The position numbers and the translations under genes are program-made. A DNA stretch of 64,000 nucleotides from a virus: the IMG/VR virus record IMGVR_UViG_3300005466_000025, positions 38,757 to 102,756 of that record; one strand, 5' to 3'. This document shows positions 2,792 through 63,907 of this stretch, piece after piece (positions within the stretch are counted from its first letter, which is position 1; each line of letters starts with the position of its first letter). The notes under the pieces were generated by a model. It saw nothing but the letters and a program-made list of their open reading frames with translations, was not told where the DNA came from and did not search any database.

Positions 2792-3153
2792 TGAGATATC
2801 CATTTCTGGCAATGTTTCAGAAGATGGATGAGCCTGAAACGACCTATATTGATAAGGTTGCGGGACATTATGAGCTAAACAATTTCCCTGGCTGTAATCA
2901 AATGGTTGTTTCAAATCACTCATGCGTCTACCCTGAATTCAGGGGAATGGGTCTTGGAACTCAGCTAGCAAAGGAGAAGATTTCAGTCGCAAAGAAGGAA
3001 GGCTATGACTACATGATTGCAACGGTTGTGTCAACAAATACTGTACAACTTGCAATCATGGAAAAGAATGGCTGGAAACTCCTGGACACTTTCTTCAATC
3101 GGGAAAGTGGAAACGAAGTTAATATTTTTGGAAGGAGGTTAAGTGAGCAATAG
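2791..3153 (+). CDS. GNAT-family N-acetyltransferase
   Basis: This 120-residue protein has the GNAT acetyl-CoA pyrophosphate loop RGMGLGTQL (around residue 50), the following helix, a substrate-recognition strand and an NGW...F C-terminal motif. The family moves an acetyl (or aminoacyl) group from CoA (or tRNA) to an amine. It overlaps the first amidoligase gene by 11 bases. Acetyltransferase-like domains are known to occur with amidoligase/ATP-grasp clusters, so it may cap or build the product of that module. The substrate is unknown. Confidence 0.75.
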   Translation: MRYPFLAMFQKMDEPETTYIDKVAGHYELNNFPGCNQMVVSNHSCVYPEFRGMGLGTQLAKEKISVAKKEGYDYMIATVVSTNTVQLAIMEKNGWKLLDTFFNRESGNEVNIFGRRLSEQ

Positions 3154-3895: not shown

Positions 3896-4283
3896 AAAGG
3901 CTCTAATAAAGGCAACTAAAAGATCAACGCATAGGCGTCATCAAACGGGTTGCGTGATTGTTGGAAAGAAGGGAGAAATTCTTTCCACAGGCTGTAGTCA
4001 TGCATCATCATTGAGAATGAGTGAGCTTCACTCTATTCACGCGGAAATTCATGCGTTGGGAAGAGGAAGATATGAAAATCTCAGAGGCGCGACGGCGTAT
4101 ATCTGCACAATGGCGAGAAAATCGGGGAATCTTGTATATTCTCGTCCATGCCTTACTTGTGCGATTGCGCTCAGATCGACAGGAATAATTGATGTCGTCT
4201 ATTCTAATAAAATAGGCGGTTTCCAGCGTCTTGACCTTGAGAAAAATCTCATTGGTCTTAAAGTCTACCCTAGGAGGAAATAA
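3828..4283 (+). CDS. Cytidine/deoxycytidylate deaminase-family protein
   Basis: This 151-residue protein has the zinc-deaminase motifs HAE (catalytic His and Glu) and, about 40 residues later, SRPCLTC (two zinc cysteines). The PCxxC spacing and size fit the dCMP/ComE-type deaminases, which feed dUMP to thymidylate synthase (ThyX is at 42.3 kb). Because it is embedded between two amidoligases, a role in that pathway, such as modifying a nucleobase substrate, is the alternative. It overlaps the upstream gene by 68 bases. ATG with AAAGGTGG upstream. Confidence 0.75.
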   Translation: MQVDSLPQRLVLPNGGKLNQDVRKALIKATKRSTHRRHQTGCVIVGKKGEILSTGCSHASSLRMSELHSIHAEIHALGRGRYENLRGATAYICTMARKSGNLVYSRPCLTCAIALRSTGIIDVVYSNKIGGFQRLDLEKNLIGLKVYPRRK

Positions 4284-20158: not shown

Positions 20159-20870
20159 AAAATAATTCCAGGATTTCATTGGGGGCAGGATCGAAAACCA
20201 CATCCGCAAATTGACTAGGAACAACAGGGTGAAGATTGGGGTCACCTAGCGTCCATCCTGTCCAGATTTTTTCATACCATTCTGGTATCCACTCATGGTT
20301 ATGTTCCGATCCAGAAATTTTTTGTCTCATTTCCTCGTCCGATCTTACAAATGAAAAATGATGAAACTCTGCGCCAGTTGTCCACCCATTTCTTGCGTCA
20401 GTTAGGCGACTAAATTTAAATTGTTGGTTGGTTCTTATCGCCACCACCGGGTTGTCGGGCTGAGGATCGGGCTGAATTCTTAACCCCATTGTCTTCCAAT
20501 AGACGTGCATATTTGGTGCCCGGACAACATCCACATCATCCTTCAAGGATTTTAATAAAAAATATAATTCTTTTTCTTCCCAGAATTCATCTGTATCAAC
20601 AACTAGTGCCCACTCTATTCCTTGCATTTTCATGTGTGCAAGTCCATGGTTTCTTTGTTGATGATCCACTCCACTATTTATATAAACTAAATTGGCTCCC
20701 TCCTCCTCAACAATATCCATGGTCATATCATTGTTTCCTTCGCCACGCCATGGACGGTCGGAACACACAACATAATGTGGCAAGCCAAAACTTCTAAACT
20801 GCCTAATATTTGCAGCCATGAATCTCTCTGCCTTATATGCAACAGTTAGAACTCCAACTTTATTGTTCAA
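20145..20870 (-). CDS. Glycosyltransferase (GT-A, family-2/92-like)
   Basis: This 241-residue protein has GVLTVAYKAERFM, WALVVDTDEFW (DTDE metal site) and a GAEFHHFSF motif with conserved histidines. Such proteins transfer sugars in Golgi-like and capsule pathways. It overlaps the cytidylyltransferase gene, so the two products are probably used together. Confidence 0.7.
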   Translation of the reverse strand: MNNKVGVLTVAYKAERFMAANIRQFRSFGLPHYVVCSDRPWRGEGNNDMTMDIVEEEGANLVYINSGVDHQQRNHGLAHMKMQGIEWALVVDTDEFWEEKELYFLLKSLKDDVDVVRAPNMHVYWKTMGLRIQPDPQPDNPVVAIRTNQQFKFSRLTDARNGWTTGAEFHHFSFVRSDEEMRQKISGSEHNHEWIPEWYEKIWTGWTLGDPNLHPVVPSQFADVVFDPAPNEILELFYEPS

Positions 20871-55018: not shown

Positions 55019-55100
55019 GCGCGAGTGGTGGAACGGTATACACACTAGGCTTAGAACCTAGCGCCCTCCGGGATTGTGGGTTCGACTCCCACCTTGCGTA
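55019..55100 (+). tRNA. tRNA-Leu(UAG)
   Basis: Acceptor GCGCGAG/CTTGCGT, anticodon stem CTAGG/CCTAG with loop CTTAGAA, long variable arm, A73. A normal type-II leucine tRNA. Confidence 0.9.
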
Positions 55101-55105
55101 CTTAT

Positions 55106-55179
55106 GCCCCTCTAACCCAATTGGTAGAGGTATCCGGTTTAAGCCCGGTCAAGTGAGAGTTCGAATCTCTCGGGGGGTA
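55106..55179 (+). tRNA. tRNA with Leu anticodon UAA, type-I architecture
   Basis: Acceptor GCCCCTC/GGGGGGT, anticodon stem TCCGG/CCGGT, loop TTTAAGC (34-36 TAA, reads UUA), A73. The variable loop is only CAAGT, whereas bacterial leucine tRNAs normally have a long variable arm. Its body closely matches the Leu(CAA) tRNA at 59972. Confidence 0.8.
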
Positions 55180-55184
55180 CTAAT

Positions 55185-55268
55185 GTCGATCTGGTGAAAT
55201 AGGTAGACACGCTAGCTTGAGGGGCTAGTTCCAGAAATGGAGTGCGGGTTCGACTCCCGCGTTCGACA
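55185..55268 (+). tRNA. tRNA-Leu(GAG)
   Basis: Anticodon stem CTAGC/GCTAG with loop TTGAGGG, long variable arm, A73. Acceptor has one U-U mismatch at pair 6. An ORF starts two bases after its 3' end. Confidence 0.88.
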
Positions 55269-55270
55269 CT

Positions 55271-55384
55271 ATGAAATTAATGACGTTACAGCAAGCACAA
55301 GCTATGAAAATTGCAGAATTTAATTCCCTTTTTAAGGACGTAATTTTCACAGCAAAACGCGGCGGAATTAAATTTGCATCTTAG
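55271..55384 (+). CDS. Possible 37-aa protein between two tRNAs
   Basis: ATG 55271 lies two bases after tRNA-Leu(GAG), and its last nine bases overlap tRNA-Tyr. No Shine-Dalgarno is possible except within the tRNA. The product is basic and helical (ending TAKRGGIKFAS). Part of the tRNA-punctuated ORF set. Confidence 0.45.
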   Translation: MKLMTLQQAQAMKIAEFNSLFKDVIFTAKRGGIKFAS

Positions 55385-55453
55385 CCCAAGGTGGGCACGG
55401 TGGCTGTAACCCACCCGTCTAAGACATGGTAGGTTCGATTCCTACAGGATGCA
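55376..55453 (+). tRNA. tRNA-Tyr(GUA)
   Basis: Acceptor GCATCTT/AGGATGC, anticodon stem GGTGG/CCACC with loop CTGTAAC, a medium-long variable arm as in bacterial Tyr tRNAs, A73. It overlaps the 3' end of the 37-codon ORF. Confidence 0.9.
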
Positions 55454-55461
55454 CTTAAATT

Positions 55462-55857
55462 ATGAAGAATAACATCATCATCCTCACGCTTGTTGGAATA
55501 ATTGGATTGATGGCTGTTATCACAGTTTATTCCCTGACAAGTAAGACGGAAAAGGCACCAAAGGTTGCCAGGATAACAACATCATCAACCACAAGGGAAA
55601 TTAATAAGTTCTTTAGCAATGCGAGTGTTGAAGTTGTATCTAATCAAGTTGTTTGGAGTCTTAACAAGACTGATCTATTGGAGGAGACGGCATATGCGGC
55701 GGCTCGGGCGGATACTAAGGTGGAGAAGATTGGCTTTAGGAAATACTTTTTGTCCCAAGGCGGTGTAATCTATAGACAAGTGTGCTATAATCTACATGCG
55801 TTTGATGAGGCATGGTCGCTAGGATATTGTGTACATAGGAATATAGAGAAGGGTTAG
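55462..55857 (+). CDS. Membrane-anchored hypothetical protein, 131 aa
   Basis: ATG 55462 lies 8 bases after tRNA-Tyr. An N-terminal transmembrane helix (IIILTLVGIIGLMAVITVYSL) is followed by a soluble domain of about 100 residues with two Cys. It is probably exposed outside the membrane. The family is unknown. Confidence 0.65.
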   Translation: MKNNIIILTLVGIIGLMAVITVYSLTSKTEKAPKVARITTSSTTREINKFFSNASVEVVSNQVVWSLNKTDLLEETAYAAARADTKVEKIGFRKYFLSQGGVIYRQVCYNLHAFDEAWSLGYCVHRNIEKG

Positions 55858-55859
55858 AA

Positions 55860-55922
55860 ATGGAATTCGGTCTGTTGGGTCTTATATTACTTATCATCAT
55901 TATCGTTTTAATTGTAAGATAA
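55860..55922 (+). CDS. 20-aa single-helix membrane micropeptide
   Basis: ATG 55860 overlaps the upstream stop region, with AGAAGGG upstream. The peptide is almost entirely Leu/Ile/Val with a terminal Arg (LLGLILLIIIIVLIVR), like KdpF-type or regulatory membrane micropeptides. It ends three bases before tRNA-Ser(GCU). Confidence 0.5.
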   Translation: MEFGLLGLILLIIIIVLIVR

Positions 55923-55925
55923 CAC

Positions 55926-56013
55926 GGAATGGCAAGCCGATGGTTGGCGACGGCACTCCCCTGCTAAGGGAGCGAGCTTAAAAGCCTTGTGGGATCGTTC
56001 CCCACCCTTTCCG
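55926..56013 (+). tRNA. tRNA-Ser(GCU)
   Basis: Anticodon stem CTCCC/GGGAG with loop CTGCTAA, long variable arm, T-stem GTGGG/CCCAC, G73. One acceptor mismatch (pair 5). An ORF starts three bases after the 3' end. Confidence 0.88.
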
Positions 56014-56016
56014 CTC

Positions 56017-56367
56017 ATGAGAAGAATATTAGATAATATAGCCATCATATTCTTGGTGATTGTTGTCACAGGTGGCTTTATCTATTCCTTATATCAGGGT
56101 TTCTTTGAGGATACAGGGGCGAGGGCCAGATTGGCTATCTCAAATAATATCAAATCCTGTCAGGATAACATAGCCAAGGCCGTTGTGTTTGAGCAGTTCG
56201 CTAGGGAGGCCGCAGCCGCCAGACGTGCCCAGGCTGCCGCTGATTTTAAAGCGGGAGATGAAATCTCAGCCAAGAATAATCTTGCCACGGCGGAACGCTA
56301 TGAGTCCTTCGCTCATCAATGGGATGTATTGACAGTTAAGGACTGTCGTAAGGAATACGGAGGCTAG
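56017..56367 (+). CDS. Membrane-anchored coiled-coil protein, 116 aa
   Basis: ATG 56017 follows tRNA-Ser(GCU) by three bases, with no Shine-Dalgarno. A transmembrane helix at about 8-27 is followed by a long Ala/Arg/Glu-rich helix, probably a coiled coil. It has the same plan as the next gene. Confidence 0.6.
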   Translation: MRRILDNIAIIFLVIVVTGGFIYSLYQGFFEDTGARARLAISNNIKSCQDNIAKAVVFEQFAREAAAARRAQAAADFKAGDEISAKNNLATAERYESFAHQWDVLTVKDCRKEYGG

Positions 56368-56396
56368 TAAGGATTTTGTAAGGCCCTCTTTTTTTG

Positions 56397-56405
56397 TGCT
56401 ATACT
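56397..56405 (+). promoter_or_regulatory. Extended -10 promoter, leaderless start
   Basis: TGCTATACT; six bases separate the hexamer from ATG 56412. TTGTAA 18 bases upstream of the hexamer (56376-56381) is a possible -35. Confidence 0.7.
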
Positions 56406-56411
56406 CCTATC

Positions 56412-56822
56412 ATGATACGACTGAGAAGCGAGAAGGGACAGGGCGATGTTGGTTTCGTCCTCGCAATCGGATTCGTTGCAGTCATTGTTCTTGTAGGTTT
56501 TGTTACCCTTCTATTTGGAGCTAAGGCTTATTCCAGATATCAGAAGAGGGCTGACGCCGAAAACCAAGTTAAGGTGACGGCAATTCAGATCAGGAACCAG
56601 GAACAGCGAGTCAAGATTGCACAGCAGAAGGCGCAGATTAGATATCAGGAGGCAATTGGTATTCGTCGCGCCCAGGATGAAATTGCAAAGACCCTGAATA
56701 GAAACTATCTTACACACGAATATATTCAGGCTCTTAGGGAATCACATGCAACAACTGTTTATATCCCGACTAGCCCGACAGATGGACTTCCCGTTGTAAC
56801 AACAAGAAACGCAGGAGACTAA
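56412..56822 (+). CDS. Membrane-anchored coiled-coil protein, leaderless, 136 aa
   Basis: ATG 56412 is at the predicted transcription start. A transmembrane helix (GFVLAIGFVAVIVLVGFVTL, about 14-35) is followed by a long charged helix and a Thr/Ser/Pro-rich end. A strong hairpin terminator follows. The role is unknown; position does not suggest lysis. Confidence 0.65.
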   Translation: MIRLRSEKGQGDVGFVLAIGFVAVIVLVGFVTLLFGAKAYSRYQKRADAENQVKVTAIQIRNQEQRVKIAQQKAQIRYQEAIGIRRAQDEIAKTLNRNYLTHEYIQALRESHATTVYIPTSPTDGLPVVTTRNAGD

Positions 56823-56855
56823 ACAGCAAGGCCCCCTTCCGGGGGCCTTAACTGT
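56823..56855 (+). terminator. GC-rich hairpin terminator
   Basis: AAGGCCCCC (56828-56836) pairs with GGGGGCCTT (56841-56849), extended by ACAG/CTGT outside. No long U-tract, as is common in high-GC bacteria and their phages. Confidence 0.7.
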
Positions 56856-56889
56856 CGCGGGATGAGCTACCAAAAGCATTATACCAATA

Positions 56890-56898
56890 TGGTATAAT
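56890..56898 (+). promoter_or_regulatory. Extended -10 promoter of the methyltransferase gene, leaderless start
   Basis: TGGTATAAT; six bases then GTG 56905. Confidence 0.7.
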
Positions 56899-56904
56899 GA
56901 TTAT

Positions 56905-57900
56905 GTGAGATTAACCGTAGGAAGTTTGTTTAGTGGATGTGGCGGATTAGATTTGGGAATGGAAAGGGCTGGATTCGACACCATATGGATGTGCGAAAAC
57001 GACAAATGGTGCAGGAAGATTCTGAACAAGAATTGGCCTGGTATTCACTTATACGAAGACGCGAATACGTTCATGCCAGACTCGGTAGACATATTGATTG
57101 GTGGATTCCCGTGTCAGCCAGTGTCATTCGCAGGGAGAAGAAATGGAGTTGATGATCCTAAATGGCTATGGCCCGCTTATGAAAGAACCATTCGCAATCT
57201 TCGACCCAGATACGTTATCGTGGAAAACGTACCCGGACTCTTCAGACACGGATTCGATGAAGTTCTCGGATCGTTGGCCCTACAGGGGTATAATGCTGAA
57301 TGGTTCAGTCTACAATCTTCAGACATTGGAGCGCCCCACAGACGAAAAAGAGTTTTTATTCTTGCTACCAACTCCGGTAGCCTGGGACTCAGGAAGGACA
57401 ACAAAGGCCCATCTGGCAAACAAGGCAAAGCTAGGGGAAGGGAGAAAAATGATTACTTCCCTCAACGTCTTAGTGAGGAATCAATTTCAGCAGCCGCTCT
57501 TGCCGACACCGTTAGTGGACGATTCAAAAAACGGCAAAAGGGGTGGGAGTTACAACTCATTGAGTCGGAGCGTGATTCTGTTGCCAACTCCGACAGCAAA
57601 TATGAGTACAGGGCCGGGAGGATTCAAGGTACGCGGGGGCAAGAATTTGCAGACAGCGATTTCGGAAATTACGCAGAGGCTATTAGACGATGGTCTGAAC
57701 TCAATGGACTCCCTCCCGCCCCAAGAGACGAGCAAGGAAGAATGAGTCCCTACTTCGTTGAATGGATGATGGGATTCCCTGAGGGATGGACAGAAGGTGT
57801 ATCGAAAACACAGCGGCTAAAAATGCTAGGTAATAGTGTTCAGGTTCAATGCGCCCAGGTTGCAGGGAACCTCATAAGAGAGAAGGTTAAGAATGAGTAA
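56905..57900 (+). CDS. DNA (cytosine-5) methyltransferase, leaderless GTG start
   Basis: This 331-residue protein has SLFSGCGGLDLGMERAGF (SAM motif I), GGFPCQPVS (catalytic Cys70), VIVENVPGL (Glu107), IGAPHRRKRVFILA (QRR-like motif VIII) and a C-terminal LGNSVQ motif. It methylates cytosine C5, possibly to protect phage DNA from host restriction. The GTG is at the predicted +1 of TGGTATAAT, with no Shine-Dalgarno. A second protein-like frame overlaps residues 80-280. Confidence 0.88.
   Translation: MRLTVGSLFSGCGGLDLGMERAGFDTIWMCENDKWCRKILNKNWPGIHLYEDANTFMPDSVDILIGGFPCQPVSFAGRRNGVDDPKWLWPAYERTIRNLRPRYVIVENVPGLFRHGFDEVLGSLALQGYNAEWFSLQSSDIGAPHRRKRVFILATNSGSLGLRKDNKGPSGKQGKARGREKNDYFPQRLSEESISAAALADTVSGRFKKRQKGWELQLIESERDSVANSDSKYEYRAGRIQGTRGQEFADSDFGNYAEAIRRWSELNGLPPAPRDEQGRMSPYFVEWMMGFPEGWTEGVSKTQRLKMLGNSVQVQCAQVAGNLIREKVKNE
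57143..57745 (+). CDS. Overlapping gene inside the cytosine methyltransferase, about 200 aa
   Basis: A second frame (+1) open from at least 57098 has ATG 57143 with GGGAG five bases upstream. The product (FAIFDPDTLSWKTYP, PYRGIMLNGSVYNL, LERPTDEKEF, then LLPTPVAWDS, LLPTPLVDD and LLPTPTANM) has the conserved-looking modules of stand-alone phage proteins that accompany cytosine methyltransferases. A chance frame would not show three LLPTP units. The function is unknown. Confidence 0.55.
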   Translation: MELMILNGYGPLMKEPFAIFDPDTLSWKTYPDSSDTDSMKFSDRWPYRGIMLNGSVYNLQTLERPTDEKEFLFLLPTPVAWDSGRTTKAHLANKAKLGEGRKMITSLNVLVRNQFQQPLLPTPLVDDSKNGKRGGSYNSLSRSVILLPTPTANMSTGPGGFKVRGGKNLQTAISEITQRLLDDGLNSMDSLPPQETSKEE

Positions 57901-58126
57901 ACAATTTCTAACAATCGGGGAGGTTTCAAAACAAGTTGGTAGAGTATCCCACACCATAAGACAGTGGGAGAGGGACGGCCGTCTGCCTCCAAGACTTCTT
58001 CCCTCAAGGGATGAGAATGGATGGAGGGTTTGGACGGTAGATCAGGTTGAGGAACTAAAGGTTTGGATAGAGAAGGAGGACCTTCGCCCAGGCAAGGCAC
58101 TTCCATACAATAATAAGGAGAAATAA
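57893..58126 (+). CDS. MerR-like helix-turn-helix DNA-binding protein, 77 aa
   Basis: It has FLTIGEVSKQVGRVSHTIRQW followed by ERDGRLPP, the MerR/excisionase winged-HTH pattern, and a short helical tail. It overlaps the methyltransferase stop (ATGAGTAA). It may regulate this cassette. Confidence 0.75.
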   Translation: MSKQFLTIGEVSKQVGRVSHTIRQWERDGRLPPRLLPSRDENGWRVWTVDQVEELKVWIEKEDLRPGKALPYNNKEK

Positions 58127-58354
58127 ATGAGTAGCAGCACAACAACTGCTAGTTCAGGAGTGAGTCTAGGGTTTCTTGAATTCCTGACGCTCATCTTCAT
58201 TACCCTAAAACTAACTGGTTATATTGACTGGTCATGGTGGTGGGTTCTGTCTCCACTGTGGGCACAGCTAGTTGTCTTTGTAATCGCCCTTATAACAGTT
58301 CTGTTGTATGCGGCTGGAAGTATCAAGAGAGGAAAAGCAGATGGCATCAGATGA
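58127..58354 (+). CDS. Two-helix membrane protein, 75 aa
   Basis: AAGGAGAAATAA lies before the ATG. Hydrophobic helices at about 13-30 and 38-62 are joined by a Trp-rich turn (DWSWWWVL). The function is unknown. Confidence 0.65.
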   Translation: MSSSTTTASSGVSLGFLEFLTLIFITLKLTGYIDWSWWWVLSPLWAQLVVFVIALITVLLYAAGSIKRGKADGIR

Positions 58355-58556
58355 GGCACTAGATACATTCACATTCACAGTTGAGGAGAAAATTGGACTT
58401 AAGGATTATTCAAACATCCTAGTTCGGGCCTCCCTGTCCAGACAGATTCCCGACGATGAGGATGCACGCAAGGATGTTATCAATATCGTGGAGAATATTC
58501 TGGTAATGGAGCGTCGTATTGTCCTAGAGGACCTAGGGGTAGAAGTAAAGTCTTAG
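58341..58556 (+). CDS. Hypothetical protein, 71 aa
   Basis: ATG 58341 follows GAGAGGAAAAG and overlaps the membrane-protein gene. An acidic alpha/beta protein (EEKIGLKDYSNILVRASL). No family is assigned. Confidence 0.6.
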   Translation: MASDEALDTFTFTVEEKIGLKDYSNILVRASLSRQIPDDEDARKDVINIVENILVMERRIVLEDLGVEVKS

Positions 58557-58563
58557 TAAAGTC

Positions 58564-58576
58564 GCCCCACAGGGGC
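58564..58576 (+). terminator. Short hairpin after the methyltransferase cassette
   Basis: GCCCC (58564-58568) / GGGGC (58572-58576) with a 3-base loop, no U-tract. It lies directly before the next promoter. Confidence 0.4.
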
Positions 58577-58584
58577 AGAATCTT

Positions 58585-58593
58585 TGCTATAGT
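58585..58593 (+). promoter_or_regulatory. Extended -10 promoter whose +1 is the first base of a tRNA
   Basis: TGCTATAGT; six bases later is 58600, the first base of tRNA(CAU). Confidence 0.65.
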
Positions 58594-58599
58594 TCTTGG

Positions 58600-58672
58600 T
58601 GCGCGTTGGAGAAGCGGTTACCTCGCAAGCTTCATAAGCTTGAGAACCCTGGTTCGAATCCAGGACGCGCTA
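58600..58672 (+). tRNA. tRNA-Met or tRNA-Ile2 (CAU), with U1-U72 mismatch
   Basis: Acceptor TGCGCGT/ACGCGCT with a mismatched first pair, anticodon stem CAAGC/GCTTG with loop TTCATAA, A73. The mismatch recalls initiator tRNAs, but the three G-C pairs of initiators are absent from the anticodon stem. The 5' end coincides with the predicted +1. Confidence 0.8.
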
Positions 58673-58673
58673 C

Positions 58674-58703
58674 TTGACAAGGGACGGTGAAGTATGCTAC
58701 ACT
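58674..58703 (+). promoter_or_regulatory. Consensus -35/-10 promoter
   Basis: TTGACA (58674-58679), 18-base spacer ending in TGC, TACACT (58698-58703). The best -35 in the window; drives the next tRNA block. Confidence 0.75.
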
Positions 58704-58754
58704 TTGTCGAAATGGGGATACGTCCCCGAGAAACTTGACAACTTAGTAGGTCAT

Positions 58755-58828
58755 CTGGATGTAGGAAAGCTTGGCAATCCGTCTGCTTTGGGAGCAGAAG
58801 ACCGCTGGTTCGAATCCAGCCATCCGGA
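58755..58828 (+). tRNA. tRNA-Pro(UGG)
   Basis: Acceptor CTGGATG/CATCCGG (C1-G72 as in Pro), anticodon loop TTTGGGA, T-loop TTCGAAT, A73. Confidence 0.9.
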
Positions 58829-58945
58829 CTGTTGCGACTAATCTAGATACGTCGCAATCGTGAGTGGTGACCCGTTAATTCACCACCGTTACCCAATAGG
58901 CGTTGTATTGGGGGTGCCCCCGCCTACCAAAATGTGGGGTATTAT
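58829..58945 (+). other. Spacer with hairpins between tRNA genes
   Basis: TTGCGAC...GTCGCAA (7 bp), GGTGA...TCACC and GGCG...CGCC can form three successive hairpins. No ORF or tRNA is seen here. Confidence 0.4.
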
Positions 58946-59020
58946 CTGGGTGTAGCTCAGCTTGGTCAGAGTAATCGCCTTGGACGCGAGAAGTCGCAGG
59001 TTCGAATCCTGCTGCCCAGA
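58946..59020 (+). tRNA. tRNA-Pro(UGG), second copy
   Basis: Acceptor CTGGGTG/TGCCCAG with C1-G72, loop CTTGGAC (34-36 TGG), one anticodon-stem mismatch, A73. Different body from the copy at 58755. Confidence 0.8.
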
Positions 59021-59075
59021 CTGGAAGCAACTGTGTGGATACGTAAAAGTGTTGCTGAAAGTAAGTCCACAACCC

Positions 59076-59151
59076 GATGGTATAGTGAAGTCAGGCCTAT
59101 CACGTCTCCCTGTCAAGGAGAAGAACACGGGTTCGAATCCCGTTATCATCG
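59076..59151 (+). tRNA. tRNA-Asp(GUC)
   Basis: Acceptor GATGGTA/TATCATC, anticodon stem TCTCC/GGAGA with loop CTGTCAA, G73. Confidence 0.9.
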
Positions 59152-59154
59152 CTA

Positions 59155-59215
59155 AAGAGAGTCCCTTCGATCCCTGGACGGACGCGCGCCTAGAGGTAAG
59201 ACGCAATACTCTCTT
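59155..59215 (+). other. Closed-stem spacer element E1 (structured RNA)
   Basis: AAGAGAGT (59155-59162) pairs perfectly with ACTCTCTT (59208-59215), closing a 61-base unit between tRNA-Asp and tRNA-Gly. There is no T-arm or anticodon arm, so it is not a tRNA. Confidence 0.45.
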
Positions 59216-59220
59216 AACTA

Positions 59221-59292
59221 GCAGCAATAATTCAGTGGTAGAATGTCTGCTTGCCAAGCAGAATGTCGTGAGTTCGAATCTCACTTGTTGCT
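59221..59292 (+). tRNA. tRNA-Gly(GCC)
   Basis: Acceptor GCAGCAA/TTGTTGC, anticodon stem TCTGC/GCAGA, loop TTGCCAA, U73 as in Gly. Confidence 0.92.
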
Positions 59293-59375
59293 CTTATCTG
59301 CCTAAGTCAGTCCTCGGCGTATGGCGAGAGGAATATGGGAGCCTGGAACCCATAGGTAAAAAATGCACGGCAAAT

Positions 59376-59447
59376 GAGTCGGAAGTATCTGGTGATATCC
59401 CTGGGCTGTGACTCCGGGCGGGTAGGGTTCGATCCCCTAACGACTCT
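59376..59447 (+). tRNA. tRNA-His(GUG)
   Basis: Acceptor GAGTCGG/ACGACTC (last pair mismatched), loop CTGTGAC, T-stem TAGGG/CCCTA. No encoded G-1/C73 pair is evident, unusual for His. Confidence 0.8.
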
Positions 59448-59511
59448 TAGTGGTTCATGCCTTGCCTGCAAGGGCGGAAAGAACGGATACTACAAGGCCC
59501 GTCACCACTAA
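59447..59511 (+). other. Closed-stem spacer element E2 (structured RNA)
   Basis: TTAGTGGT (59447-59454) pairs with ACCACTAA (59504-59511), with an inner CCTTG/CAAGG hairpin. A 65-base unit abutting tRNA-His and tRNA-Gly; no T-arm. Confidence 0.5.
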
Positions 59512-59517
59512 TTTTAA

Positions 59518-59590
59518 GCTTCCTTATTGTTAATGGTTAGCAAACGTGCCTTCCAAGCATGGAGTGTCAGTTCAAATCTGACAGGAAGCT
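59518..59590 (+). tRNA. tRNA-Gly(UCC)
   Basis: Acceptor GCTTCCT/AGGAAGC, loop CTTCCAA, T-loop TTCAAAT, U73. Confidence 0.9.
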
Positions 59591-59595
59591 CTCAA

Positions 59596-59668
59596 GTCTC
59601 TATAGCTCAGTGGAAAAGAGCAACGGGTTTCTACCCCGTGAGCCTAGGTTCGAATCCTAGTAGGGACT
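59596..59668 (+). tRNA. tRNA-Arg(UCU)
   Basis: Acceptor GTCTCTA/TAGGGAC, anticodon stem ACGGG/CCCGT, loop TTTCTAC, T-loop TTCGAAT. Confidence 0.92.
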
Positions 59669-59722
59669 CTGTGAATAAGATTCGGCGCAGGGCGTACCTT
59701 GGCGCGGCAACAGAACAAGTGC

Positions 59723-59781
59723 GGGACTTACCGGGAAGTACAAGCAACTAGGCGAGACGGCGCTGAACGGGAGAAAGTCCC
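59723..59781 (+). other. Closed-stem spacer element E3 (structured RNA)
   Basis: GGGACTT (59723-59729) pairs with AAGTCCC (59775-59781), 59 bases long, between tRNA-Arg and tRNA-Lys. The 50 bases before it are G/C-rich and also hairpin-prone, without an ORF. Confidence 0.45.
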
Positions 59782-59791
59782 TCCCAAATAT

Positions 59792-59866
59792 GGAACATTA
59801 GCTAAAATGGACAAAGGCACCTGGCTCTTAACCAGGAGATTCTAGGTTCGATCCCTAGATGTTCCA
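59792..59866 (+). tRNA. tRNA-Lys(CUU)
   Basis: Acceptor GGAACAT/ATGTTCC, anticodon stem CCTGG/CCAGG, loop CTCTTAA, T-loop TTCGATC, A73. Confidence 0.92.
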
Positions 59867-59871
59867 CTTTA

Positions 59872-59964
59872 TTAACTCCCTGGATGGGTATCTGGCTCGA
59901 AACCAGTGTAATAAGAAATGGTGTTCTCCGCGGAACGTAGAGAGTTCGATTCTCTCCGGTTGAT
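59872..59964 (+). tRNA. tRNA-Ser(CGA) with shortened D-arm
   Basis: Anticodon stem CTGG/CCAG with loop CTCGAAA, long variable arm with GTTC/GAAC, T-stem GAGAG/CTCTC. Acceptor TTAACTC/CGGTTGA has one mismatch. Only about 12 bases (CCTGGATGGGTA) lie between acceptor and anticodon stems, so the D-arm is truncated. Confidence 0.65.
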
Positions 59965-59971
59965 AAAACTT

Positions 59972-60045
59972 GCCCCTCTAGCCCAATTGGCAGAGGCACG
60001 GCACTCAAAACGCCGACAGTCTGAGTTCGAATCTCAGGTGGGGTA
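59972..60045 (+). tRNA. tRNA with Leu anticodon CAA, type-I architecture
   Basis: Acceptor GCCCCTC/GTGGGGT, loop CTCAAAA, variable loop only ACAGT, A73. Near-identical D-region to the UAA tRNA at 55106. The thioredoxin ORF starts two bases after it. Confidence 0.8.
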
Positions 60046-60047
60046 CT

Positions 60048-60299
60048 ATGAAACACCTAATGAAATTTGAAGCTGATTGGTGTGGCCCATGTCATGCCAT
60101 TAGACCGCTAGTTGAAAAGATTGCGGATGAGAATGAACTAGATATAGTGGTGGTTGATATTGATAAGGACAGTGACGTTGCCACCCTGTATGGAGTCGCC
60201 TCAATTCCAACAATCATTTTGATTGAGGATGGTTCAGAAGTAGCAAGGCATATTGGTTCCGCGCCAAAATCCACAATAGAAAAGAACTTGAATTTATAG
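60048..60299 (+). CDS. Thioredoxin-like protein
   Basis: This 83-residue protein has WCGPCHAIRP (residues 12-21) and VASIPTIILI (cis-Pro loop), a compact thioredoxin fold. It could serve as reductant for ribonucleotide reductase. The ATG is two bases after tRNA-Leu(CAA), and the only purine-rich run lies inside that tRNA. Its TAG overlaps the first bases of tRNA-Ile(GAU). Confidence 0.85.
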   Translation: MKHLMKFEADWCGPCHAIRPLVEKIADENELDIVVVDIDKDSDVATLYGVASIPTIILIEDGSEVARHIGSAPKSTIEKNLNL

Positions 60300-60374
60300 A
60301 CTAGTACGCCCTCTGGCTGATAACCAGTTGAAAGGCTATGCGGATACAAAATGGTTCGAATCCATTCTAGTCTA
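60298..60374 (+). tRNA. tRNA-Ile(GAU)-like, D-arm missing
   Basis: Acceptor AGACTAG/CTAGTCT, anticodon stem TCTGG/CCAGT with loop CTGATAA, T-arm AATGG/CCATT with TTCGAAT, A73. Only 7 bases separate acceptor and anticodon stems, while 21 bases replace the variable loop. It is either a D-armless tRNA or a rearranged one. Confidence 0.6.
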
Positions 60375-60375
60375 C

Positions 60376-60415
60376 TGGGTAAGGAATTTGTTAAAAAGGG
60401 TCGATTCCCACCCCA
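60376..60415 (+). other. tRNA-like remnant (T-arm and acceptor only)
   Basis: GGG-TCGATT-CCC resembles a T-arm flanked by TGGGT...ACCCCA, with no anticodon arm. Likely a decayed tRNA. Confidence 0.3.
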
Positions 60416-60429
60416 AACTTGAAATCTTG

Positions 60430-60438
60430 TGCTATAAT
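60430..60438 (+). promoter_or_regulatory. Extended -10 promoter of a structured RNA
   Basis: TGCTATAAT, predicted +1 near 60445, seven bases before the first hairpin of the 60452-60585 RNA. Confidence 0.65.
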
Positions 60439-60451
60439 CCTTAGCACACAA

Positions 60452-60585
60452 GGGGAGATATGGGTTAAACTGTATCTTCCCACCATGCCTCTCACAGTCT
60501 TACGGCTGTCAGAGGCTCCTGGCCCCCAGTACCCTAACGGGGAAAAGGGCAGCCTGGAAGGAGAGGGGTAAAAGCCTCTCCTTCC
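60452..60585 (+). ncRNA. Structured non-coding RNA with four successive hairpins
   Basis: Hairpin A: GGGGAGATA (60452-60460) with TATCTTCCC (60473-60481). B: GCCTCTCACAG (60487-60497) with CTGTCAGAGGC (60506-60516), one mismatch. C: CTGG...CCTGG region (60518-60557). D: GGAAGGAGAGG (60556-60566) with CCTCTCCTTCC (60575-60585), 11 perfect pairs. It starts just downstream of a promoter and is followed by tRNA-Val. No family is recognised. Confidence 0.6.
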
Positions 60586-60594
60586 CCCAAACTT

Positions 60595-60667
60595 AGGCAA
60601 TTAGCTCAGCCGGGAGAGCGCCGTTCTTACAAATCGGAGGCCGGGGGATCGAAGCCCTCATTGCCTA
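60595..60667 (+). tRNA. tRNA-Val(UAC)
   Basis: Acceptor AGGCAAT/ATTGCCT, loop CTTACAA, T-loop ATCGAAG (T54 replaced by A), A73. One mismatch in the anticodon stem. Confidence 0.82.
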
Positions 60668-60671
60668 TCAA

Positions 60672-60743
60672 GTCAAAGTGACCGAGCGGATAGGTATGAG
60701 TCTGCAAAACTCATTCACGCTGGTTCGAATCCAGTCTTTGACT
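60672..60743 (+). tRNA. tRNA-Cys(GCA)
   Basis: Acceptor GTCAAAG/CTTTGAC, anticodon stem TGAGT/ACTCA, loop CTGCAAA, U73 as in Cys. Confidence 0.92.
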
Positions 60744-60776
60744 CTTCCTTTTCCTAGGATAAAAAGGAGGTACCAT

Positions 60777-60869
60777 ATGACAGCAATTAAACCAGGAAAG
60801 CTTTCGACACTTACTGTCGCCTGGACTCCGACCTGGACCGCTAATTGGTCGCCAGTCTGGTCAATGTAA
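60777..60869 (+). CDS. 30-aa tryptophan-rich micropeptide
   Basis: AAAAAGGAGG lies 6 bases before ATG 60777, one of the best ribosome-binding sites in the array. After a basic start (TAIKPGKLS) the peptide has four Trp in a regular pattern, W-T-P-T-W-T-A-N-W-S-P-V-W. This is likely membrane-active or a binding peptide. No family is known to me. Confidence 0.6.
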   Translation: MTAIKPGKLSTLTVAWTPTWTANWSPVWSM

Positions 60870-60881
60870 GTCAAGAGATGG

Positions 60882-60934
60882 GTTAGGTATTTTCTAGATA
60901 AATCCAGCATTCAAGGCCGCGCCTTTGCCTAACG
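60882..60934 (+). other. Hairpin spacer between micropeptide and tRNA-Ala
   Basis: GTTAGG...CCTAAC (6 bp) encloses AAGGC/GCCTT. No ORF is seen here. Confidence 0.35.
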
Positions 60935-60960
60935 AGGGAAGTAAAATGCGGTCAATAAAT

Positions 60961-61032
60961 GGGGCTGTAAGCTAATCAGGAAACTACCTGCTTTGCACGC
61001 AGGAATACGGGGAGCATAACCCCGCCGCTCCA
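60961..61032 (+). tRNA. tRNA-Ala(UGC) with atypical T-loop
   Basis: Acceptor GGGGCTG/CCGCTCC keeps G3-U70, the Ala identity pair. Anticodon stem CCTGC/GCAGG, loop TTTGCAC, A73. The T-loop is AGCATAA instead of TTCRANY. Confidence 0.75.
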
Positions 61033-61091
61033 CTCCCTTCAAGTAGAGATACCAAGTGATCATGGTGAGGGAAACTAAAGTCTCTATACAT

Positions 61092-61163
61092 TCCAGCTTG
61101 GCGCAAAGGTAGCGCAATCGGCTGTTAACCGAGAGGTTCTAGGTTCGAATCCTAGAGTTGGAG
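61092..61163 (+). tRNA. tRNA-Asn(GUU)
   Basis: Acceptor TCCAGCT/AGTTGGA, anticodon stem ATCGG/CCGAG (outermost pair A-G mismatched), loop CTGTTAA, T-stem CTAGG/CCTAG, G73. Confidence 0.88.
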
Positions 61164-61235
61164 CTAGCGGAGGGGCATATGGACAGACTCCGTATGTTAA
61201 ATGAGGGGCGTATCGCCCCCGCCCCAATGCCACAT

Positions 61236-61307
61236 TCCTCAGTAGCTTAGTAGTAGAGCAGCAGTCTCATAAGCTGTAAGGCAATGGTGCAACTCCATTC
61301 TGAGGGA
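61236..61307 (+). tRNA. tRNA-Met or tRNA-Ile2 (CAU), second CAU tRNA
   Basis: Acceptor TCCTCAG/CTGAGGG, loop CTCATAA, T-arm AATGG/CCATT with loop TGCAACT, A73. The 1-72 pair is U-G. Confidence 0.8.
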
Positions 61308-61327
61308 CTATATTGAACCACAGCTTG

Positions 61328-61336
61328 TGTTATAAT
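61328..61336 (+). promoter_or_regulatory. Extended -10 promoter, leaderless HNH gene
   Basis: TGTTATAAT; five bases then ATG 61342. Confidence 0.65.
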
Positions 61337-61341
61337 ATAGC

Positions 61342-61650
61342 ATGAGCAAGCAGGCAGAATATTCGTCTAAATGGTACAATAATAATAAGCAGTTGCAGAA
61401 GCAAAGAGTTGACAGTAGAAGAAGGGAAATGACCCAATTTCTGTTCTCTCTAAAGAAAAATAAGAAGTGTGCGTTCTGTTCAGAGAGTGAGCCAGCTTGT
61501 CTAGACTGGCATCACACTAGAGATAAGATCGTAGATGTAAGTCAGATTCCAAAGATGGGTTGGGGTAAGGAGAAAGCATTAGAAGAAATTTCAAAGTGCA
61601 TTCTTGTTTGCGCCAACTGTCACAGGAAACTACACGCCGGATTAGTTTAA
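61342..61650 (+). CDS. HNH endonuclease, leaderless
   Basis: This 102-residue protein has a basic N-terminus, then CAFCSESEPACLDWHHTRDK and CANCHRKLHAG, the two zinc pairs and catalytic His of HNH/homing-type nucleases. It lies inside a tRNA array and its 3' end overlaps tRNA-Thr, so it may be a free-standing homing endonuclease. No Shine-Dalgarno; the ATG sits at the predicted +1. Confidence 0.8.
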   Translation: MSKQAEYSSKWYNNNKQLQKQRVDSRRREMTQFLFSLKKNKKCAFCSESEPACLDWHHTRDKIVDVSQIPKMGWGKEKALEEISKCILVCANCHRKLHAGLV

Positions 61651-61707
61651 CTGGTAAAACACGACTCTTGTAAAGTTGTGAACAGGGTTCAAGTCCTTGA
61701 TTCGGCT
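61636..61707 (+). tRNA. tRNA-Thr(UGU)
   Basis: Acceptor GCCGGAT/ATTCGGC, anticodon stem CGACT/AGTTG, loop CTTGTAA, T-loop TTCAAGT. The first 15 bases overlap the HNH ORF. Confidence 0.88.
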
Positions 61708-61732
61708 TAGGGTTCGATTCCTAGACGTGGCT
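61708..61732 (+). pseudogene. 3' tRNA fragment (T-arm plus acceptor strand)
   Basis: A second TTCGATT loop with CCTAG and an ACGTGGC acceptor strand directly follows tRNA-Thr, with no matching 5' half. It looks like the relic of a tRNA recombination. Confidence 0.5.
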
Positions 61733-61736
61733 CTTA

Positions 61737-61745
61737 TGCTATAAT
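61737..61745 (+). promoter_or_regulatory. Extended -10 promoter
   Basis: TGCTATAAT with predicted +1 near 61752, the base of the TAGGCTC/GAGCCTA hairpin. Confidence 0.65.
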
Positions 61746-61752
61746 GTTCCCT

Positions 61753-61821
61753 TAGGCTCCTAGCTCCTAAAATTGGACGTGAGCCTACGCGCAGGTAAAG
61801 GCATGGCGTAACAGATGCCTT
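61753..61821 (+). other. Two-hairpin 5' leader before tRNA-Ile(UAU)
   Basis: TAGGCTC (61753-61759) pairs with GAGCCTA (61781-61787), then AAGGCAT (61798-61804) with ATGCCTT (61815-61821). It starts at the predicted +1. Confidence 0.45.
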
Positions 61822-61827
61822 GTGTTT

Positions 61828-61901
61828 GCACCTTGGCAGGCCGGTTGTTTGGAGGTATCTTATAAGTATCTTTAAGCTTGGTTCGACTCCAAGAGGGTGT
61901 A
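61828..61901 (+). tRNA. tRNA-Ile(UAU)
   Basis: Acceptor GCACCTT/AGGGTGT, anticodon stem GGTAT/GTATC, loop CTTATAA, T-loop TTCGACT, A73. UAU is a rare anticodon that reads AUA. An ORF starts three bases after it. Confidence 0.85.
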
Positions 61902-61904
61902 TAA

Positions 61905-62072
61905 ATGGAATATACAAAAACACAGTGGGAGTCATTCCCGACAACAAAGGATGCGGAAGTTATTTCATGCCAGTATTGTGAGAACGAAACTGTTGTGAAA
62001 GCTAACAAATTCGTAACACGGTACACATGTCCTACGTGCTATAGTGTACCTAAGTTAAGCAAGCGCAAGTAA
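61905..62072 (+). CDS. Zinc-ribbon protein, 55 aa
   Basis: ATG 61905 lies three bases after tRNA-Ile(UAU). CQYC and CPTC (21 residues apart) form a zinc ribbon, and the tail is basic (KLSKRK). The stop is four bases before tRNA-Glu. The purine run that could act as a Shine-Dalgarno is inside the tRNA acceptor stem. Confidence 0.65.
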   Translation: MEYTKTQWESFPTTKDAEVISCQYCENETVVKANKFVTRYTCPTCYSVPKLSKRK

Positions 62073-62075
62073 CAT

Positions 62076-62146
62076 GGCCCTATCGTCTAATGGTAGGACG
62101 GGTGCCTTTCAAGCATCTAACCGGGGATCGTAACCCCGTAGGGCTA
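62076..62146 (+). tRNA. tRNA-Glu(UUC)
   Basis: Acceptor GGCCCTA/TAGGGCT, anticodon stem GGTGC/GCATC, loop CTTTCAA, T-stem CGGGG/CCCCG with loop ATCGTAA. Confidence 0.85.
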
Positions 62147-62150
62147 CTAA

Positions 62151-62222
62151 CGCTCATTAGCTCAACGGAAAGAGCATTGGTCTTCGAAACCAAGAGTGAA
62201 GGTTCGATTCCTTCATGGGCGT
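62151..62222 (+). tRNA. tRNA-Arg(UCG)
   Basis: Acceptor CGCTCAT/ATGGGCG, anticodon stem TTGGT/ACCAA, loop CTTCGAA, T-stem GAAGG/CCTTC. Confidence 0.92.
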
Positions 62223-62223
62223 C

Positions 62224-62327
62224 TGGCAGGAAGTCACATTTAAGTTGAAGTGACTGATAGTAGATGAAGATGGAAGATGGAGGTAGAAGTAGTACAGTCG
62301 TAGTTCTGCATCATCGACTTCCTGCCA
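62224..62327 (+). ncRNA. Putative non-coding RNA closed by a 12-bp perfect stem
   Basis: TGGCAGGAAGTC (62224-62235) pairs perfectly with GACTTCCTGCCA (62316-62327). Inside are GTCAC/GTGAC and a purine-rich stretch with repeated GATGRA/GGAGG-like units. It sits between tRNA-Arg and tRNA-Lys with no ORF. Confidence 0.55.
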
Positions 62328-62377
62328 ATTTGTTTGGTGGACCGGGACTCCTGGGTAAGAGTAAAAACTGCCCAATA

Positions 62378-62449
62378 TCCTCCGTAGCGTACTGGCAGCG
62401 CACACGCCTTTTAAGCGACGAGGACAGGGTTCGATTCCCTGCGGGGGGA
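62378..62449 (+). tRNA. tRNA-Lys(UUU)
   Basis: Acceptor TCCTCCG/CGGGGGG, loop CTTTTAA, T-stem CAGGG/CCCTG, A73. The anticodon stem keeps only three good pairs. Confidence 0.78.
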
Positions 62450-62578
62450 CTGGCGAAGGTGTCGTTCGAATCGACTATGGTGTAACCTGGAAGCACATCG
62501 CCATGAATCCATGCGACGGCATGGGGGTACCAGGGTATCTGGTTGTTCGTCGGGGTCAACCTTAATCAATCCGACCAT
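62450..62578 (+). other. Spacer with T-arm-like and other hairpins
   Basis: GTCG-TTCGAAT-CGAC looks like an isolated T-arm, and GGTTG/CAACC forms a second hairpin. No anticodon arm or ORF is visible. Confidence 0.35.
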
Positions 62579-62650
62579 TTCTCAGTCGTCTAATTGGCAG
62601 GACAGCGGACTTTGAATCCGCGAATCTGGGTTCGAATCCTAGCAGAGAAA
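62579..62650 (+). tRNA. tRNA-Gln(UUG)
   Basis: Acceptor TTCTCAG/CAGAGAA (one mismatch), anticodon stem GCGGA/TCCGC, loop CTTTGAA, T-loop TTCGAAT. Confidence 0.88.
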
Positions 62651-62655
62651 CTACA

Positions 62656-62712
62656 CCCCTCCGAATGGGTCATAGACTAGTCCGGCTACCCCTGAAATAG
62701 AGCCGGGAGGGG
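62656..62712 (+). other. Closed-stem spacer element E4 (structured RNA)
   Basis: CCCCTCC (62656-62662) pairs with GGAGGGG (62706-62712) and encloses CGGCT/AGCCG. A 57-base unit between tRNA-Gln and tRNA-Arg. Confidence 0.5.
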
Positions 62713-62717
62713 ATCAA

Positions 62718-62790
62718 TGCTTCTTAGCTCAGAGGATAGAGCGCGTCCCTGCGAAGGACGAGGCCATAGGTTCGATTCCTATAGGGGCAA
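62718..62790 (+). tRNA. tRNA-Arg(GCG)
   Basis: Acceptor TGCTTCT/AGGGGCA, anticodon stem CGTCC/GGACG, loop CTGCGAA, T-stem ATAGG/CCTAT, A73. An ORF starts one base after the 3' end. Confidence 0.88.
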
Positions 62791-62791
62791 T

Positions 62792-62995
62792 ATGATAATT
62801 AAATTAGGACCAATAGTGATTATGGATTCCAAGACAAGGGAGGCCTATAGGGAACTCCTAACAGAGGCATATTTGGTTCATCAAAATATTTGGTTTTCAC
62901 AGGATTGGGCGCAATCTGAGCAGGAAATTAAGAATGCAGATTCCCATCTTTCTGAAGCAATTTCACATGTACCAGCAAGTGAATTAGAAATTTAG
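62792..62995 (+). CDS. Hypothetical protein, 67 aa, between tRNA-Arg and RNase P RNA
   Basis: ATG 62792 begins one base after tRNA-Arg(GCG). The AGGGGCA acceptor strand is the only Shine-Dalgarno-like run. A helical, acidic protein (DSKTREAYRELLTEAYL...). Its stop lies in the first helix of the RNase P RNA. The function is unknown. Confidence 0.6.
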   Translation: MIIKLGPIVIMDSKTREAYRELLTEAYLVHQNIWFSQDWAQSEQEIKNADSHLSEAISHVPASELEI

Positions 62996-63346
62996 AGTGG
63001 AAGACTTGTGCGGCGGAATTCCAACACCGTCGAGGAAGTTCGGGCCACATGAATGCGCTAGACTTGCGAGGAGGCGCAGGAAACGAGCAGAAAAAGTGGG
63101 AGCGGTCGTAAGCTAACGATGGGAAACCGGGAGAAATAGCTGGCCGCGCCTTACCACAAATTCGTCGGTGTGTAACCTCAAGACGCCCTTAGTCTAAGGG
63201 GCATGGTAGAGGGCAGCTAATAATTTAGCCATATGGAGTCATAGTGTCCCTTCTCTACGAAGGTGGTAAGCCCTGAGGTCACGTACAGGCGCTCCATATG
63301 AGACAGATGCAAGTCCACGACAGAATCCCGGCTACGAAACTCTAAA
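62991..63346 (+). ncRNA. rnpB: RNase P RNA (bacterial type)
   Basis: Helix P1: TTTAGAGT (62991-62998) with ACTCTAAA (63339-63346). P2: GACTTG (63003-63008) with CAAGTC (63310-63315). P3: CGGCGG (63011-63016) with CCGTCG (63027-63032). Conserved region I is GAGGAAGTTCGGGC (63032-63045), CAGAAA is at 63088-63093, and the near-universal CCACGACAGAATCCCGGCT is at 63315-63333. P4 forms TCGGG (63040-63044) with CCCGG (63327-63331). The RNA removes 5' leaders from pre-tRNAs with the host RnpA protein; none is seen here. It lies in the tRNA array it probably serves. Confidence 0.93.
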
Positions 63347-63380
63347 TTAACAAAATATTGACCTACTAAGTTGAAATTTG

Positions 63381-63389
63381 TGTTATAGT
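63381..63389 (+). promoter_or_regulatory. Extended -10 promoter of the tRNA-Trp block
   Basis: TGTTATAGT, predicted +1 near 63396, four bases before tRNA-Trp. TTGACC at 63358 is a possible -35 with a long spacer. Confidence 0.6.
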
Positions 63390-63399
63390 AATCAAACAC

Positions 63400-63470
63400 A
63401 GGCTGTTGGTGTAACAGCAGCATGAACGGCTCCAACCCGTTTGGCGAGGGTGCAAATCCTTCACGGCCTG
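63400..63470 (+). tRNA. tRNA-Trp(CCA)
   Basis: Acceptor AGGCTGT/ACGGCCT, anticodon stem AACGG/CCGTT, loop CTCCAAC, T-loop TGCAAAT, G73 as in Trp. Confidence 0.88.
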
Positions 63471-63510
63471 CTAGTCCTTGGCCCCCGGACTTTTAAAATA
63501 GGGGCAACAT

Positions 63511-63584
63511 GTTGATGTAGCTCAGCTAGGTAGAGCATTCGGTTGAAGCCCGCAAGGTCACAGGTTCGAGTCCTGTCGTCAACA
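63511..63584 (+). tRNA. tRNA-Phe(GAA)
   Basis: Acceptor GTTGATG/CGTCAAC, loop TTGAAGC, T-stem ACAGG/CCTGT, A73. Confidence 0.88.
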
Positions 63585-63589
63585 CTCTT

Positions 63590-63662
63590 GTTCCATTGGT
63601 CTAACGGTCAGGACGCCGCCCTCTCAAGGCGGAGGCTATGGGTTCGAATCCCATATGGAATA
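63590..63662 (+). tRNA. tRNA-Glu(CUC)
   Basis: Acceptor GTTCCAT/ATGGAAT, anticodon stem CCGCC/GGCGG, loop CTCTCAA, T-stem ATGGG/CCCAT. Confidence 0.9.
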
Positions 63663-63671
63663 TGAGGCAAG

Positions 63672-63743
63672 TAGGTTGTGGTGTAATGGTTAGCACACCG
63701 GGGTTTGACCCGGAGGAGCCGCGTTCGAATCGGGTCAGCCGAA
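63672..63743 (+). tRNA. Degenerate tRNA-like gene, anticodon uncertain
   Basis: D-arm GTGTAATGGTTAGCAC and a T-loop TTCGAAT are clear. The T-stem and acceptor carry mismatches, and the anticodon stem CCGGG/CCCGG closes a 6-base loop GTTTGA, so UUG (Gln) is the best but uncertain reading. Possibly a pseudo-tRNA. Confidence 0.4.
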
Positions 63744-63754
63744 AGCTTCAACTA

Positions 63755-63805
63755 AAAGAGTAAATTTCGGGATTTAACTACTCTTTCAAAAAACTTTTAA
63801 ATCCC
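63755..63805 (+). promoter_or_regulatory. Mutually exclusive hairpins before tRNA-Gln(CUG)
   Basis: AAAGAGTA (63755-63762) can pair with TACTCTTT (63779-63786), or GGGATTTAA (63769-63777) with TTAAATCCC (63797-63805). The two stems interleave, so only one can form at a time, as in an attenuator or processing switch. Confidence 0.45.
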
Positions 63806-63809
63806 ACTT

Positions 63810-63881
63810 TCCACAGTCGTCTAACGGGTAGGACGCTGGACTCTGAATCCAGTAATCTAGGTTCGAATCCTAGTAGTGGAG
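63810..63881 (+). tRNA. tRNA-Gln(CUG)
   Basis: Anticodon stem CTGGA/TCCAG, loop CTCTGAA, T-stem CTAGG/CCTAG, G73 as in Gln. Acceptor TCCACAG/TAGTGGA has one mismatch. Confidence 0.88.
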
Positions 63882-63907
63882 CTAACAGCCGGATGAATGT
63901 AAGTAAT

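Follow-up and report, generated by a model that had tools for sequence, protein, structure and literature searches.

What does it mean when about 600 bases inside a phage cytosine methyltransferase gene can be read as two proteins, and is the second reading a gene at all? The question is raised by a stretch of 64,000 nucleotides (hereafter the window, positions 38,757 to 102,756 of IMGVR_UViG_3300005466_000025, a linear virus record in IMG/VR that is 102,756 bases long), whose long open reading frames (ORFs) include phage-like replication and structural genes. The original prediction placed an ORF at 57098-57745 in the +1 frame of the methyltransferase ORF 56905-57900, and it is found at exactly these positions on the + strand (215 codons plus stop, opening at TTG 57098), with the modules that had been read in it, FAIFDPDTLSWKTYP, GIMLNGSVY and three LLPTP units, all present. 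I will refer to the methyltransferase as alpha and to the second protein as beta (Table 1), and I will argue that these bases are very probably read in two frames to yield a DNA-methylating enzyme together with its apparent DNA-recognition partner.

Table 1. Features of the alpha/beta locus, in coordinates of the window.
Feature	Position	Strand	Evidence or remark
Palindrome CATTATACCA-ATA-TGGTATAATG, contains TATAAT (56893-56898)	56877..56899	+	Sequence; possible promoter and operator
Alpha: C5-cytosine DNA methyltransferase, 331 aa, GTG start	56905..57900	+	PF00145, TIGR00675
Alpha motif IV, GGFPCQ	57100-57117	+	Read from sequence
AGGGAG Shine-Dalgarno-like sequence and probable beta ATG	57132..57145	+	Within alpha codons A-G-R-R-N-G
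Beta: second protein, frame +1 of alpha, 200 aa from ATG 57143	57143..57745	+	phrog_1008, profile, selection
Doubly constrained stretch: beta N-terminal element (FAIFDPDTLSWKTYP...RWPYRGIMLNGSVY) over alpha motifs VI-VIII	57185..57361	+	Third-base chi2, both profiles informative
Alpha motif VI, ENV	57223-57231	+	Inside overlap
Alpha motif VIII, GAPHRRKR	57328-57351	+	Inside overlap
Variable region: alpha unconserved, predicted disordered; beta LLPTP units (candidate target-recognition part)	57362..57742	+	
LLPTP units of beta	57362-57376, 57497-57511, 57578-57592	+	
Alpha motif IX, MSPYFVEWMMGFPEGW	57742-57789	+	Past overlap
Alpha motif X	57817-57840	+	Past overlap
MerR-like DNA-binding protein	57893-58126		PF13411 1.7e-8; PADLOC mad1 8.7e-8

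The identity of alpha is readily established, since it matches PF00145 over its full length (E=4.1e-51, residues 4-321) as well as TIGR00675, and carries the complete set of motifs I, IV (with its PCQ), VI, VIII, IX and X, while its AlphaFold model has a confident catalytic core with M.HhaI and M.HaeIII as the top Foldseek matches. The same model falls below a pLDDT of 50 at residues 181-241, the place occupied by the target-recognition domain in monomeric enzymes. Motifs VIII and X had both been placed in the shared DNA, and this holds for motif VIII; motif X lies downstream of it. A scan of six flanking ORFs brought up no recognisable restriction enzyme, and an orphan, self-protecting methyltransferase is therefore its likely role. 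The ATG of the MerR-like gene overlaps the alpha stop, and the two genes likely belong to one operon. Upstream, TATAAT ends 6 nt before the alpha GTG and lies inside a palindrome, so the alpha mRNA may be leaderless, with the two elements as a possible promoter and operator. The perfect dyad ATACCA-NNN-TGGTAT has two mismatch-free copies in the window, at 56877-56899 and 20274-20288, and the copy at 56881, which has 10-bp arms, overlaps the TATAAT 5' of alpha; it is a possible operator, perhaps for the MerR-like protein. The surroundings are also rich in tRNA genes, with 31 within 9 kb (55019-63882) around the locus, and these probably account for the ORFs listed at 58889-59411 as artefacts.

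Could the +1 frame simply be open by chance? In 20,000 synonymous shuffles of the window alpha, the longest +1 ORF had a mean of 75 codons and 3 shuffles reached 215. Relatives were then gathered by similarity to alpha and not selected for beta, which keeps the sample free of a bias towards beta (seven phage loci identified beforehand are part of it as well). Of these 161 relatives, 156 have an open +1 frame across motifs VI-VIII, compared to 46.3 expected from synonymous shuffles, with a mean +1 ORF of 247 codons against 88 in the shuffles; for +2, open frames number 12 of 162. Six distinct Dcm-type methyltransferases, used as a monomeric control, had 0 open +1 frames and no match to beta, and together with the shuffles this control rules out chance opening. 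The content of the frame can be judged in the same manner: on a beta profile, the window gene scores 117 bits versus 33-59 bits in five synonymous shuffles, each of the 161 relatives scores above five shuffled versions of itself, and the medians are 145 bits for real and 36 bits for shuffled genes, on a profile that was trained on these same +1 frames. A profile made from only seven beta sequences gives medians of 67 and 9 bits, respectively. Alpha conservation does spill over into +1, as the 36 bits of the shuffled genes demonstrate, yet the effect is far below the 145 bits of the real ones.

Selection provides a second line of evidence. The third-base test used a set of 132 genes sharing no more than 80% identity, with the codon usage of the other genes at each locus as reference, and the mean deviation of alpha third bases is a chi2 per column of 40.1 within the overlap versus 6.4 upstream (mostly 30-60 per column versus 6 upstream in the doubly constrained stretch). 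This constraint steps up near 57085, about 20 codons before the ATG of the window beta at 57143, and since the step is family-wide and lies 5' of that ATG, it points to an earlier beta start in part, perhaps much, of the family; another signal over the GGFPCQ codons would be the alternative for 57082-57142. Isolated substitutions were also counted in pairs of relatives, which are not independent although the same pairs supply both sides of the contrast: those creating a beta stop, alpha-silent or not, amount to 2 per 1643 sites in the overlap versus 286 per 1037 upstream, and the beta dNN/dNS is 0.18 in the overlap versus 0.78 in the same phantom frame upstream. The closest relatives found for the window locus share at most 57% DNA identity over the aligned part, so it is the family that these tests describe and not this phage's own lineage. 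Both frames are coding and under selection in the family, and the window beta is one of its members; the original prediction that both frames are genuine is thus strongly supported by the open frames, the third-base constraint, the dNN/dNS ratios and the avoidance of stops. Viral loci at 32-37% GC (e.g., L123 and L101) have methyltransferase genes richer in G+C than their surroundings and only 3 of the 161 alpha ORFs are below 42% GC, and this raised G+C is perhaps a cost of double coding.

What, then, might beta do? It matches phrog_1008 (E=7e-18), as do 122 of 125 beta relatives, and this family is annotated as 'DNA methyltransferase' and joins beta to the alpha C-terminus; among the beta relatives there is no Pfam match and one marginal NCBIfam match, and no description of the family was found in the literature searched. 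The protein is laid out as an N-terminal two-hairpin element, the three LLPTP units and a C-terminal helix. Its predicted structure is of low confidence (pLDDT 66, pTM 0.33) and matched no solved fold, the sole BFVD match under E 0.001 being another phage 'methyltransferase'. More informative is the distribution of the methyltransferase motifs between the two frames. Motif IX is in the beta frame in 128 of the 161 relatives and in alpha in 27, including the window, and most relatives with motif IX in beta have motif X downstream in alpha (103 such pairs were located). The frame of motif IX changed about 5 times by parsimony compared to a mean of 24 with shuffled labels, and the alpha tree did not settle where the window belongs. 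Past motif VIII, alpha retains roughly 0.17 bits per position and beta, in the same DNA, 0.4-0.8 with recurring PTP units. In L002 (Gordonia phage Gudmit), a single chain has PTP units placed after motif VIII and before motif IX. An unusual frame holds PTP units or motif IX in Gudmit (2600-3000) and in L136 (3421-3606), which suggests that such modules move between frames through indels. In L003 (Mycobacterium phage Jarcob, 1802-2972), frame changes have joined alpha and beta into a single ORF that runs from the beta N-terminus into alpha motif VIII and then through PTP units, IX and X.

Enzymes of this type have precedents. The beta gene of M.EcoHK31I is nested in its alpha gene in another frame, and the window locus resembles it in having a second polypeptide in a frame overlapping the methyltransferase gene. 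Two-polypeptide C5 enzymes are known in M.EcoHK31I and M.AquI (PMC3404938), and in the former, which recognises YGGCCR, the large subunit has motifs I-VIII and X, and motif IX occurs only in the small polypeptide (PMC3404938), which is the layout of the 128 relatives described above. In the window, however, beta ends short of motif IX, which lies in alpha, and the locus is therefore best called a variant that may work like M.EcoHK31I, going by the described layout of that enzyme, and not a member by the placement of motif IX. M.AquI (CYCGRG) is likewise one enzyme made from two polypeptides, and its small subunit has part of the variable region (PMC3404938), but that subunit also carries motifs IX-X, both of which the window has in alpha. 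Paired 'DNA methylase' genes of actinophages (Firecracker gp5/gp6, Lilbooboo gp32/gp33) overlap as they do here, although in Mycobacterium phage Firecracker alpha stops past motif VIII and beta holds IX and X. The record of Paenibacillus phage Diva (DIVA_49/DIVA_50) annotates a 'g49 internal gene' in a cytosine methyltransferase, but labels it a hypothetical protein without a link to methylation. An alternative-frame protein within a phage methylase gene is also known from the ShiLan domain, a mobile insertion with an HNH nuclease encoded in a third frame (PMC11855218); beta differs in that it overlays the conserved methyltransferase core (motifs VI and VIII), and a hidden HNH endonuclease was rejected as its identity, with no HNH or other Pfam match.

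I consider it likely that two overlapping same-strand frames of this locus specify the two polypeptides of one C5-cytosine methyltransferase, with beta supplying target recognition. Alpha, in frame 0, would supply AdoMet binding, the catalytic Cys and, in the window variant, motifs IX and X; beta would be translated from the ATG inside the alpha gene via its own ribosome-binding site, and would most likely bind alpha and contribute the target-recognition region that alpha is without, the LLPTP region being encoded by the DNA where a monomeric enzyme would have this domain. In the phage, the pair would probably serve as an orphan methyltransferase marking the phage genome against restriction. 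Beta is taken to be the target-recognition subunit because of its position, its conservation and the known two-polypeptide enzymes, and these have to carry the specificity reading since the poor beta model has no solved relative. The predicted target-recognition domain of M.EcoHK31I was placed in the larger subunit (PMC3404938), which disagrees with its placement in beta here.

The strongest competing explanation is that beta is real in the family but dispensable or decaying in the window variant, where motif IX was regained, and that alpha, which carries all of motifs I-X and thus could act alone, does so. I regard this as unlikely, although the subclass with motif IX in alpha does show weaker constraint, with a beta dNN/dNS of 0.31 against 0.15, and in several of its members a stop codon interrupts the original beta frame. 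However, 0.31 is still well below the 0.84 measured outside the overlap, and where a stop cuts the original frame short (L060, L079, L080, L115 and L001) an intact beta core follows in the same frame, preceded by a new ATG after the stop in L079, L080 and L001. Also, the variable region of alpha is predicted to be disordered, leaving no recognisable target-recognition domain in alpha itself.

Beta might instead be a separate protein, such as a counter-defence factor or regulator, that merely shares the DNA of the methyltransferase. The spread of the family speaks to this. The original prediction was exposed to stop codons in this frame among homologues and to a lack of independent homologues, and it withstood both, with the open frames reported above and the beta consensus present in the records of 481 sequenced phages. 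The beta profile or consensus was found in 29 of 398 sampled genomes from the phylum of the Methylobacterium locus, and the profile in 10 of 295 genomes from the class of L071; the overlap itself is seen in Actinobacteria, Bacteroidetes, Firmicutes, Proteobacteria, archaea and phages. In a profile search begun from beta, all 41 beta domains at proteobacterial genome loci overlap an alpha, 40 of them in +1. Beta is one protein family that is almost always encoded inside alpha. The absence of a Pfam family for beta and one non-overlapping paralogue would suit a separate protein, the latter being a second beta ORF in L071 (Bacteroidetes, 3647-4213) without a methyltransferase frame over it, but this copy directly follows an alpha/beta pair and might serve that alpha as an alternative specificity subunit. 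Considering further that methyltransferase motif IX resides in beta in most relatives, I find a separate function improbable.

Programmed frameshifting from alpha could also reach the +1 frame and produce an alpha-beta fusion rather than free beta, as the continuous overlap in +1 would allow, and as phrog_1008 and phages such as Jarcob, in which the frames can join, would lead one to consider. The start of beta argues otherwise. AGGGAG sits five bases 5' of ATG 57143, which is probably the true start in preference to TTG 57098, and a Shine-Dalgarno-like sequence with a beta-frame ATG lies 12-20 codons past GGxPC in 51 of 132 non-redundant relatives compared to 27.9 in synonymous shuffles; new ATGs also appear where the beta frame was broken. 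Some phage annotators have called beta as its own gene or recorded the pair or an internal gene, and many records annotate just one member of the pair. A fusion is thus more improbable still. The last candidate, an untranslated by-product of the alpha protein and its codon usage, is very improbable and already contradicted at the family level, since the 46 of 161 open frames expected anyway and the 36 bits that shuffled genes reach from alpha conservation alone are set against every relative beating its own shuffles, selection and stop avoidance confined to the overlap, and the negative Dcm-type controls.

Returning to the two-polypeptide enzyme, I infer from this evidence translation of beta in this phage, formation of a heterodimer, the specificity subunit and the anti-restriction role. 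Methyltransferase specificity is, by inference, the best-supported function of beta, and the anti-restriction role would be plausible for an orphan phage methyltransferase. New relative to the literature searched are the breadth of the overlap, the evidence for selection, the shifts of motif IX from one frame to the other and the proposed placement of target recognition in beta.

Outside of small viruses, few long same-strand overlaps are known in which purifying selection acts on both products, and the earlier description of such double reading as rare needs qualifying, since within this methyltransferase clade it is the rule. A long overlap under double selection recurs widely here, while Pfam has no model for beta and family databases barely record it. 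Whether C5-methyltransferases of a widespread bacterial and phage clade have their target-recognition subunit encoded in trans, overlapping their own catalytic gene, with the window beta as a pure specificity subunit next to a catalytic subunit that has every motif, I would judge to be evenly balanced; if true, specificity and catalysis would be evolving on the same bases. And if beta is the specificity subunit, the proposed location of target recognition in M.EcoHK31I would need to be re-tested, and expressing alpha by itself would make many 'orphan' phage methyltransferases appear inactive.
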